Shown here: positions 2,080 through 63,109 of the stretch, piece after piece
Layout of the letters: each line of letters begins with the position of its first letter
Numbering within the stretch: the first letter of the stretch is position 1
Origin: a virus
Length of the DNA: 64,000 bases
Strand: one strand, 5' to 3'
Virus record (IMG/VR): IMGVR_UViG_3300033153_015063
Coordinates: 62,001 to 126,000 of that record
Notes under the pieces: model-generated
What the model saw: the letters and a program-made list of their open reading frames with translations, nothing else
What the model was told of the DNA's origin: nothing
The model's database searches: none
Translations under genes and position numbers: made by a program

Positions 2080-2279
2080 CTCCTTTGGCGTCTATAGACA
2101 TACAGTCCATAAAAAAGTATCGCTAGCCCGACGCCAAGGGCTGCGTAGGGGTTGATGGTATCGAGGTAATCACGGATAGGGTCTGCGATGAGTTCAATGC
2201 CGAACGAGATAAGGATACCGACCAGGATGGCTGTAGTGACCCATTTCCTCGAAGAACTATCTCCGCCTAACTGTTCCAT
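2076..2279 (-). CDS. Small two-helix membrane protein, 67 aa
   Basis: MEQLGGDSSSRKW is followed by two hydrophobic helices (about residues 14-31 and 44-60) and a basic tail ending YRRQRS. It overlaps the genes on both sides by a few bases, which points to translational coupling within the 3656-to-1426 operon. The family is unknown. Its size and topology fit a small membrane subunit or anchor. Confidence 0.55.
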   Translation of the reverse strand: MEQLGGDSSSRKWVTTAILVGILISFGIELIADPIRDYLDTINPYAALGVGLAILFYGLYVYRRQRS

Positions 2280-2854
2280 ATCTTCCGCCTCATCCTGTTC
2301 TCATGGAAATCTCCGCCGATTCCCCTGCCGATTTCCATAAACTCCGGCCGGCCCTCATCGTCTATGTCACTTGGGGCACGTTCCACGATGATACCACGCT
2401 TCCCCTCGACAGAAGTTTCTTCCATAGGATGCATCGAATCGTATTGAGACACGCTTTGTTTCAGGTCGTCAAAATCCTCTTCGTCAGATGACATAATAAT
2501 CAAACAGTCCTCGTCGCCTTTCCTGACAACAGCGAGTTCATAGTCATCATCACGGTGAACTTCAATAACCTCTCCTTCATCTTCCAGGTCGCCGGTATCA
2601 TGGCCCATCGCCCTCATCATCTTTGCCATCATCAGGGCCTGAAATGCCTGTTCTGACTCTGGTGTAACCTGAGTGTCGGACTGGGGTTCTCCGGGACCTC
2701 TGGTCTCTTCCACTATGGCATCAGGAGGGCCCTTCCATCTATCCTTATTGTAGATAGTCCCATCTTCGTTGACCCGGCCGAGGTACTTGTCGGCTCCTTT
2801 CTCGGGGTCGTACATATAGGCGTACCAACTGTCTTTAACGGGTTGTTTCCACAT
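2267..2854 (-). CDS. Acidic protein with divergent tag-like N-terminus, 195 aa
   Basis: The N-terminus (DSWYAYMYDPEKGADKYLGRV) resembles the Y-x-Y ... Y-x-G beta-hairpin of the tag family in this window but lacks the IPPGSGN start. The remainder is strongly acidic, with DDDYELAVVRKGDEDCLIIMSS in the centre and several methionine-rich stretches (AFQALMMAKMMRAMG). The start overlaps the end of the gene at 2835 by 20 bases. Function unknown; placement in the tag family is tentative. Confidence 0.55.
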   Translation of the reverse strand: MWKQPVKDSWYAYMYDPEKGADKYLGRVNEDGTIYNKDRWKGPPDAIVEETRGPGEPQSDTQVTPESEQAFQALMMAKMMRAMGHDTGDLEDEGEVIEVHRDDDYELAVVRKGDEDCLIIMSSDEEDFDDLKQSVSQYDSMHPMEETSVEGKRGIIVERAPSDIDDEGRPEFMEIGRGIGGDFHENRMRRKIWNS

Positions 2855-3656
2855 TGGATGAGCCTCCTCTCATTATAACCGGGTCTACCAGGACATTCAG
2901 TGTCCTGGGCCTGATAGATGTATTATGGGTATTGGATTTAAGATTTACCCCTCTTTCTGCCATTTCATTTTCCACAACAAGTGCTTCATGCTCATCCTCT
3001 ACTACAATCTGAACGTCACCACTATGGTCGATAAGGACGGGACGGTCACAACGTACAAGGAAATGATAGATGGTAGCTTCGGTTCTGATAGAATCCTTCA
3101 ATGCACGACCTTCGGCTCCATACTTGGTCATCACGTTCTCGATATCCTCACTTGGGACGCTTCTTGCTGTTGCCAGGTTTATCGTTGCACGTTCAGGAAA
3201 ATCCAGGTTGAGAAGTGGTGCCTCCTGACCATCCCCATCATATTTCAATAAAGTGCCCAACTCGGTCTGGGACTCGGAGACCCCTGGCGGGTTTCTGAAA
3301 TTGACCTGCCCATCTGAGATGTAGATATCTTTGAACTCACGGATCATATCTGGATAGGAACCGAGGATCACCTTTGAAGAGAGATGAGTACTGTCATCGA
3401 GACCTGATGCAATCTGGCCGTCGCTCAGACCATCGGACTTGAATCTCCTGACCGTTGCATCTGTCACCAGAGCTTCGTTCACAATCGGAACCTGTTCTTT
3501 TTCAAAAATTGACATCATCCACTTCTCGAACTCGACTTCCTTTACGTAGTCATTCCATCTACCAAGATACTCTGTGTCCCCATCCCGCTTCCTGTAAGCA
3601 TAATAATTCCCTGAACCTTTTGGGATCTCATTTTTTGAAGCGGGATATTCAGACAT
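2835..3656 (-). CDS. Tag-family protein, divergent, 273 aa
   Basis: The N-terminal module reads EIPKGSGNYYAYRKRDGDTEYLG, a clear but divergent version of the IPPGSGN.Y.Y...YKG module. It is followed by a helical segment (FEKWMMSIFEK) and a C-terminal cargo of about 220 residues that I do not recognise. The cargo includes a hydrophobic beta segment with paired acidic residues (VQIVVEDEHEALVVENEMAE). A TATA box (TTTTTAAAC near 3685) precedes the ATG by about 30 bases. First gene of a four-gene minus-strand operon. Confidence 0.65.
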   Translation of the reverse strand: MSEYPASKNEIPKGSGNYYAYRKRDGDTEYLGRWNDYVKEVEFEKWMMSIFEKEQVPIVNEALVTDATVRRFKSDGLSDGQIASGLDDSTHLSSKVILGSYPDMIREFKDIYISDGQVNFRNPPGVSESQTELGTLLKYDGDGQEAPLLNLDFPERATINLATARSVPSEDIENVMTKYGAEGRALKDSIRTEATIYHFLVRCDRPVLIDHSGDVQIVVEDEHEALVVENEMAERGVNLKSNTHNTSIRPRTLNVLVDPVIMRGGSSNVETTR

Positions 3657-3672
3657 CTATATCACTTACATC

Positions 3673-61759: not shown

Positions 61760-61807
61760 TAGACACCAACAGAACAGTTTATAACCAACCTTTTCTATTC
61801 CCTATCC

Positions 61808-62476
61808 ATGACCACCGTTGAGATTCCTGAGGGCTCAGGCAACCGCTACAGGTACGATTACGACGCCAGTACCAAAGGCACTGTGTATAAGGGGCCTGTA
61901 GGGAATAGTCCTGGGCTTTCGGAGGAGGAGTTTCTGAGGGTTATTCAACAAACCATTGGTGGGCATGAAGCGTCGGCTAGCTCTGTGATGGGAACTCCGG
62001 CGAAGCGTGGTACCTACGTCGAACCAGACGATGATGAGCTCGGATGGGATTTCAATGATGAATGGGATTTTGTCCATGACCTGTCAGATGACAGTGAACG
62101 GCAGACGGGGACCGGCCTTCTCATAGAGAAGAGTGGTGACACTGTTACAATCATCGAGTGGACCGAGGCATCAGGTCTCATCGAGGAGTTCGAGGACCCC
62201 GAAGCCACCGTTATCAAACAAGAGGCGAGGGTGGACTTGAGTGATCTACTCGACCCAGAACAACCACATCTCAGTCCTGCGTCCTACGGCGAGGGTAGAG
62301 ACTATGATGACGCCTTCAACACCTACAAGAGGATACAGAAGGCAAAATACTACGAGCAGACCGATGATGTCTACAGACTCGAAAAAGAGTTGAAAGACAT
62401 CATCGTAGAAGCTGCTATCTCCTGGATGGGTCATTGGGGTGGGGATGAAGAGTTCGTGACCGATGTCGGTGACTGA
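61808..62476 (+). CDS. Tag-family protein, acidic cargo, 222 aa
   Basis: Module TTVEIPEGSGNRYRYDYDAS then TVYKGPVGNSPGLSEEEFLR. The acidic cargo has a Trp/Asp-rich part (GWDFNDEWDFVHDLSDDSER), a strand-rich part (DTVTIIEWTEASGLIEEF) and C-terminal helices (KYYEQTDDVYRLEKELKDII). Not recognised. AGTTTATAACC lies about 25-30 bases upstream. The spacer before it repeats TAATAGACACCAA, also found at 60952. Confidence 0.7.
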   Translation: MTTVEIPEGSGNRYRYDYDASTKGTVYKGPVGNSPGLSEEEFLRVIQQTIGGHEASASSVMGTPAKRGTYVEPDDDELGWDFNDEWDFVHDLSDDSERQTGTGLLIEKSGDTVTIIEWTEASGLIEEFEDPEATVIKQEARVDLSDLLDPEQPHLSPASYGEGRDYDDAFNTYKRIQKAKYYEQTDDVYRLEKELKDIIVEAAISWMGHWGGDEEFVTDVGD

Positions 62477-62541
62477 CCACCAACATAAACCGCTTGATTT
62501 ACCTTCCGTTTTGTATTTTCAAAAAAAGCAGGAAAGAACCA

Positions 62542-63109
62542 ATGACCATAGTCGAAATCCCCCCAGGTTCAGGGAATAAATACAGGTACGTTTACGAACA
62601 ATCAAGTCAGGACACTGTCTACAAGGGGCCAGTAGGCCAGGCCCCGGAACTGGGACGACGACCATCAACACGCCCCAGATATTTCTATTGATGGAACGAT
62701 CTATGCTGTAGAGGAGAGAATCCCTGAGTCCGTTTGGCTCTCGGCACGTCGGTGGGTGTTCAGTTCCGATCCCAGGGACAAGGAGAGCTTGATAGACGCC
62801 TATAACGGCTTGTCAGACCGCCAGAAAACGGTCATAGCGACGGATGTGAGGGAAACCTTTCGTCGGGTCTATAACGCTGATAAAACCACCATTTTTCGGT
62901 CCTTTCGGGGGCATGAGGTTGATATGGGTGGGTTGTCGGTCACTGATGAAAGATCAACCAGAGTTGGAACTGATGTTAGGGCTTTCGAGGTCTCCCATAG
63001 CGACGTAATGCTTCACTATGCCCAGGATGAGTCACCTCTGGAATCCAGGGCCTTTGGACATGAACGGGAGATTATACTCAGACCTGATGCTAACCCAATA
63101 CCAATCTGA
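62542..63109 (+). pseudogene. Frameshifted tag-family gene with probable ADP-ribosyltransferase cargo
   Basis: The module (TIVEIPPGSGNKYRYVYEQS, then TVYKGPVGQAPEL) is cut within its last part and goes out of frame at about 62650, stopping at 62691. The +1 frame continues from DDHQHAPDISIDGTIYAVEE to 63109. That part has TTIFRSFRGHEV, a GLSVTD segment and AFGHEREIILRPD, the order of an ADP-ribosyltransferase with R, S-T and ExE motifs. It is either a decayed toxin gene or one expressed by frameshifting. The deletion removed the EEEFL end of the module. Confidence 0.55.

Follow-up and report, generated by a model that had tools for sequence, protein, structure and literature searches.

A repeated unit of promoter and protein tag, present in about 42 copies with mostly unrelated cargos, in a 242.6-kb virus record of probable archaeal origin

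In this paper we describe a short protein module, here called the tag, that recurs in the IMG/VR virus record IMGVR_UViG_3300033153_015063. The window, the 64,000 nucleotides analysed here, corresponds to bases 62001-126000 of this 242,596-bp record, and a record position is therefore the window position plus 62000. A sequence-only reading of the window had proposed a family of about 17 proteins with one shared N-terminal module and unrelated cargos. The family is real and larger than claimed, with about 42 copies in the record, and a shared module with mostly unrelated cargos is borne out by consensus and profile matches and by BLAST comparison of the cargos. That reading is supported in part; it missed the full number of copies, the promoter that travels with the tag and the selection that acts on it as a protein. 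The explanation we favour, at somewhat less than an even chance, is a portable promoter-plus-docking-tag cassette, whose likeliest purpose would be to load a transfer vehicle with effector and helper proteins.

Our count is based on 43 matches to a 44-residue tag consensus across the record, and a profile search of 3,059 open reading frames (ORFs) also gave 43 tag domains at an independent E-value (iE) below 1e-3. Two of the 43 matches are the ends of one gene lying across the record ends, which leaves about 42 loci, or one fifth of the element's gene set. Reversed and shuffled ORFs gave no significant tag match (best values 0.99 and 0.42). Within the window 13 copies are strong or clear and two are partial (Table 1). 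Of the starts listed in the earlier reading, these 13 therefore stand, including the one at 42949, which is clear although it lacks the VEIPPG start. At 3656 and 36954 the match is confined to the first half of the module (positions 5-27 and 5-22 of the profile, respectively). A weak match is seen at 39081 (E 0.02-0.34), and the one at 2854 does not reach significance (E 0.5-7); neither of these two starts is supported. The C-terminal copy reported at 52135-52389 extends over about 13 residues only (iE 0.008) and was not counted. A true C-terminal copy is found outside the window at record 24156-23998, and a true internal copy at record 39506. Because such copies exist, the module behaves as a domain. 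At record 220286 and 39506 the expected ATG reads CCG or ACG, so that the start is lost or shifted.

The repeated unit extends beyond the coding sequence. We calculated position-wise identity for 23 gap-free copies (253 pairs). Beyond about -45 on the upstream side it stays at background (about 25%). It then climbs across a TATA-like box located near -30 and the leader, which is short (about 28 nt), remains at 53-86% as far as codon 45 and falls to background again from codon 46. The conserved block therefore consists of promoter, leader and a tag of 43-45 codons, about 180 bp in total and with sharp borders. Leader and tag are copied together, and their similarities correlate (Mantel r 0.36, 1 of 2000 permutations). 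Of the 15 occurrences of the core GAAYTCTTTAWA in the record, 12 lie 20-60 nt upstream of a tag start. A different promoter is shared by 20 untagged genes; it has a TTTTACGCTTTTTACGGTT box upstream and a start region of the GGTGATG type. At least two cleanly separated promoter classes can thus be distinguished in the element, and the tag goes with one of these, class B. In the other, class A, the box TTTTACGCTTTTTACGGTT stands before GAAACTATATAAAG, and this promoter is common to replication and AAA/VWA genes. The mRNA of tagged genes is probably leaderless.

The mobility of this promoter raises the question whether the tag is a functionless passenger of gene shuffling, like the promoter stem-loops of T4. 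Promoter-sized exact repeats (60-113 bp) are common elsewhere in the element, and the class-A promoter is likewise shared by its 20 genes. There is also a precedent in the archaeal virus HGTV-1, which has TATA-bearing repeats before many ORFs and for which a role in gene shuffling has been suggested (PMC3950731). The T4 PeSL cassettes and the TATA/inverted-repeat motifs of HGTV-1 are alike in being repeated promoter units before many novel genes, tied to shuffling (PMC3950731), but the unit described here reaches 43-45 codons into the gene, is selected as a protein and has no stem-loop, the longest stems in the leader being equal to those of shuffled leaders. Among tag copies the mean proportions of synonymous (pS) and nonsynonymous (pN) differences are 0.58 and 0.17. 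Synonymous sites are near saturation, the ratio of nonsynonymous to synonymous change (dN/dS) is about 0.2 and no pair exceeds 1. Translated in frame, the copies have an amino-acid identity of 0.81; the other two frames give 0.46-0.50. The tag is therefore conserved as a protein under purifying selection, and the passenger explanation is largely refuted; we consider it very improbable.

The residues E5, I6, P7, G9, S10, G11, N12, Y14, Y16, Y18, Y25, G27, P28, V29, G30, P33, E37, E39 and F40 are invariant or nearly so. A structure prediction, which the earlier reading had suggested as a check, gives a beta-hairpin (strands 14-19 and 22-28) followed by a helix (37-45) when AlphaFold2 is run on the tag alignment (mean pLDDT 77). 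A model of the complete fusion 44609-45112 has these strands too, with the helix extending into the cargo. With a two-residue turn in the hairpin, Y14, Y16, Y18 and Y25 would lie on one side and could pack on F40. The tag carries a mean net charge of -3.8 and its pI is mostly 4.1-5.1, although basic residues almost always occupy positions 13, 15 and 26.

The combination of hairpin, helix and tyrosine-rich strands resembles Arm/AP2-like domains, and DNA binding had been suggested for the module on similar grounds. The tag would then tether the cargos to the DNA or the promoters of the element. One of 40 members does match Arm-DNA-bind_5, below threshold (E 0.068), and winged helices and zinc ribbons are found among the cargos. 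However, the tag is acidic, unlike these hairpins, and many of the cargos work on nucleotides or have no connection with DNA. A fold search of the tag against the PDB and viral BFVD structures gave nothing at E < 0.001, as is expected for only 46 residues. DNA binding is disfavoured by these observations and appears decidedly improbable to us.

Another possible explanation is that the tag assists expression, folding or stability, through leaderless translation, solubility or protection from degradation, and does no sorting. It stands at gene starts after a short leader and always travels with a promoter. As with a solubility tag, an acidic segment is joined to many basic cargos, 18 of 39 having a pI of 7 or more. 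Solubility would, however, not need the conservation of specific residues such as G9, N12, Y14, Y16, Y18, Y25, G27, P28, V29, G30 and F40, the tag also occurs at C-terminal and internal positions, and most genes of the element manage without it. We regard this explanation as unlikely, though it deserves consideration. Its narrowest form, a start-proximal leader only, or a low-complexity feature without a fold as the earlier reading had put it, was rejected on the dN/dS and the C-terminal and internal copies.

The statement that the module belongs to no described family holds, as it matched no known protein family in the searches run. Alignment- and pattern-based scans of IMG/VR, GTDB, phages and plasmids confirmed no relatives of the tag, and none were found in 2.8 Mb around 160 loci related to the family B DNA polymerase (PolB) of the element. 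Searches with PolB, the ribonucleotide reductase (RNR) or an 813-aa helicase-like protein found no close relatives of the element itself. The first 18 tag residues (VEIPxGSGNxYxY) resemble the N-terminus of Family I inorganic pyrophosphatases (best profile E 0.0048). We rejected an origin as a pyrophosphatase fragment, since the match is short, ends at residue 21 and includes no catalytic part; the likeness is probably convergent.

The cargos are soluble and mostly unrelated. They are 78-338 residues long, show no transmembrane segment or signal peptide evident to the eye (no predictor was run), and form few related pairs in BLAST among cargos and genes. Many have no assigned family. Those recognised include zinc ribbons, a Ham1/ITPase at record 166656 (1.8e-22), a RelA/SpoT synthetase at record 53300 (RelA_SpoT 7e-18) and, after a +1-shifted tag at record 51824, a CCA-adding/poly(A)-polymerase-type enzyme. 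Several cargo types named in the earlier reading reappear in our searches. The DUF5661-like end is confirmed by a Pfam match, and this domain belongs among the effectors carried by phages and conjugative elements. The winged-helix cargo is predicted to be MarR-like (best E 0.016; the top Foldseek hits have probabilities of 0.97-0.99). The zincin keeps its HEVGHH motif, although the ATLF match remains below the Pfam cut-off (E 0.005), and the ADP-ribosyltransferase (ART)-like cargo found no support in Pfam or PDB sequence searches.

For the Ham1 cargo, similarity to the MJ0226-type pyrophosphatase starts exactly at residue 44, a methionine, and 23 of 37 tag-cargo junctions have methionine at this position. 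For these reasons the tag may have been placed directly before the cargo's own start codon, although Met44 could instead be a conserved tag residue. Immediately downstream of the tagged gene at record 163255 lies a paralogue (38% identity) without the tag; tagging is therefore optional for a cargo. This one alignment and this one paralogue pair suggest that the cassette is joined at the cargo's own start. The strong copy at 62542 (record 124542) is out of frame with the ORF that follows it. It shares 118 identical bases, from the ATG on, with the copy at record 51824, and the ORFs after both need the same +1 shift, so that record 51824-52100 and window 62542-62760 each show an identical tag followed by a +1-frame ORF. 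Upstream of its GG motif, the CCA-adding-type ORF lacks a start codon in frame. The shift after the twin tags could be due to programmed frameshifting, to an old indel in an ancestral copy or to an assembly fault.

A direct repeat of 64 bp is present at the termini of the record, and one tagged gene spans both ends; the sequence is therefore probably circular or circularly permuted. Besides PolB, which is about 30% identical to haloviral PolB, the element encodes a gyrase, a topoisomerase, RFC-type clamp loaders, a class II RNR, a thymidylate synthase, about ten DNA methyltransferases, PKD/TSP3 surface-type proteins and a ParA-like protein. The TATA-type promoters, the RFC genes and the affinity of PolB indicate that the host is probably an archaeon. 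With a median pI of 5.5 its proteome is only mildly acidic and hence not obviously halophilic. A genome scan with PolB returned haloarchaea, but the query alignment included one haloviral PolB and these matches therefore do not name the host.

We also observed a VLDF/VMDF-type C-terminal tail in untagged proteins, at 12 of 168 ends against 0.5 expected. Its carriers are mostly DNA methyltransferases, together with an exonuclease and an RFC-like protein, and the tail looks like one that binds a sliding clamp. Short docking signals thus seem to be in use in this element, which leads to the alternative that the tag directs cargos to a replication compartment, the sliding clamp or a partition complex. 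The absence of the tail from all tagged proteins and the presence of the ParA-like protein agree with this. On the other hand, the replication proteins themselves are untagged and the partner is only hypothetical, and we judge such intracellular targeting rather improbable.

We return to the explanation that we favour. A portable 5' cassette of TATA-type promoter, short leader and in-frame tag of 43-45 residues has been copied before about 42 genes. The tag would be a small folded docking domain, a hairpin and a helix around an aromatic core, through which co-expressed cargos are gathered at a single shared partner. Effector and helper proteins would in this way be loaded into a transfer vehicle, either a virion or a conjugation-like apparatus, and enter the next cell together with the DNA of the element, like the internal proteins of T4. 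In T-even phages these proteins are diverse and the targeting sequence is their only common part (PMC3012670). The capsid targeting sequence of IPI-III and Alt is likewise a short conserved N-terminal segment on unrelated, fast-changing proteins, some of them effectors (PMC3012670). By comparison, the tag is 43-45 residues long with a predicted fold, occurs in about 42 copies, is sometimes C-terminal or internal and has a promoter that travels along. Residues 35-37 of the tag form a conserved [LMI]-x-E that fits the gp21 motif, which we treat as a lead only. Polyvalent proteins and polymorphic toxins also vary their effector domains, and the polyvalent repertoire, described for phages and conjugative elements and associated with delivery together with DNA, includes RelA/SpoT, zincin and ART domains (PMC5512222). 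Of the cargos, the RelA/SpoT match and the weaker zincin-like domain recur in this repertoire; Ham1 and the CCA-adding-type enzyme fall outside effector families, and most cargos have no assigned family. The tagged proteins also differ in being small, with a single cargo and one short tag, and no known trafficking domain was found in them.

Several observations weigh against this explanation. No match to terminase (PF03237, PF17289) or to the HK97 capsid (PF05065) was found in the element, although a diverged capsid could escape detection, and neither a prohead protease (S77, S78 peptidase) nor TraG-D_C was found. Virion packaging is therefore unproven, and the receptor for docking is putative. 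The isolated tag reaches a pTM of only 0.35 in AlphaFold2. An N-terminal propeptide that must be cleaved off is hard to reconcile with the C-terminal copy, and ITPase and CCA-adding-type enzymes are no obvious weapons. None of the PHROG families shown for the element carries a virion name. For a vehicle the sole candidate, with a match below cut-off (E 9e-7), is the HerA/FtsK/VirB4-like ATPase encoded at record 233909-235597. This ATPase adjoins membrane proteins (record 233422-239544), a candidate packaging or transfer machine. A tailed-virus label lacks support from hallmark genes, and the element is possibly plasmid-like or membrane-virus-like.

Table 1. Tagged genes and other repeated features. 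Positions refer to the window unless marked as record positions; E values are those of the tag match unless a cargo domain is named.
Feature	Position	Strand	Tag start and match
Tagged gene; tag codons 1-44, leader/promoter about 23718-23762	23763..24452	+	23763, strong, E 2e-30
Tagged gene; helix-rich acidic cargo	24549..25646	+	24549, strong, consensus and profile matches
Tagged gene; weak Exonuc_VII_S-like stretch in cargo (E 0.002, below cut-off)	33278..34081	-	34081, strong
Tagged gene; cargo homologous (35% identity) to cargo of 43144-43641	35344..36255	-	36255, strong
Tagged gene; tag without canonical VEIPPGSG start	42407..42949	-	42949, clear, E 2e-14
Tagged gene; cargo paralogous to cargo of 35344-36255	43144..43641	-	43641, strong
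Tagged gene; predicted MarR-like winged-helix cargo	44609..45112	-	45112, strong
Tagged gene; acidic coiled-coil-like cargo	45652..46224	-	46224, strong
Tagged gene; short cargo	46281..46688	-	46688, strong
Tagged gene	59862..60674	-	60674, strong
Tagged gene; DUF5661 at C-terminus (E 4.6e-11)	61010..61759	+	61010, strong
Tagged gene	61808..62476	+	61808, strong
Tag copy, +1 out of frame with next ORF; 118 bp identical to record 51824 copy	62542..62691	+	62542, strong
Cargo ORF after out-of-frame tag; ART-like by eye only	62756..63109	+	
Divergent relative; hairpin half of module only	2835..3656	-	3656, partial, E 1.5e-6
Divergent relative; first part of module only; zincin-like cargo (HEVGHH)	36954..38123	+	36954, partial, E 8e-6
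Example of class-B promoter/leader (CCGAACTCTTTATATACTCAACACCCATTGTATTCCTTG), copied with tag	23718..23762	+	
Class-A promoter genes (20, part named)	record 16210, 31740, 43403, 49384, 96266, 120032, 167083, 198301, 203686		
VLDF/VMDF-tailed proteins	record 2537-3520, 25016-25927, 32137-32997, 35816-37084, 37097-38386, 179383-179976, 184588-186234, 189131-190474, 192106-192717, 205213-206040		
MoxR-like AAA / CobT-like VWA pairs	record 145684-146745 with 203686-205095; 134283-135929 with 198301-200313		

Other features of the element are worth describing. Large secreted or membrane proteins with PKD domains and 18 TSP3 repeat stretches are encoded at window 4959-15397, 17856-19580 and 26471-32729, an investment in surface proteins that is unusual for a virus record. 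A MoxR-like AAA ATPase and a CobT-like VWA protein occur as two paralogous pairs. Exact repeats of 110-113 bp are found outside the tagged genes, at record 98417-98529 with 114000-113888 and at record 4887-4996 with 36962-37071; these are two of many apparently copied intergenic segments.

Promoter cassettes, in T4-type phages and as suggested for HGTV-1, and shared targeting sequences, in T4, are each already known separately. Their union in one mobile unit with about 42 copies and no known family is new as far as our searches go. It is conceivable, if somewhat doubtful, that in this archaeal element of about 240 kb, in which tailed-virus structural genes were not recognised, the cassette serves as a sorting code of general use. 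Any gene captured would then yield a co-expressed protein delivered with the DNA to the next cell, similar to capsid targeting but archaeal and with dozens of cargos. If the tag is a sorting signal, the approximately 40 cargos would be a list of proteins needed at one place and one time. That place is possibly the recipient cell at the start of infection, about which almost nothing is known in archaea. Since promoter and address form one mobile unit, the cassette illustrates a way in which capture, expression and addressing of a gene can happen in a single step, and the tag could be used both as a search handle and as a tool for loading cargo.

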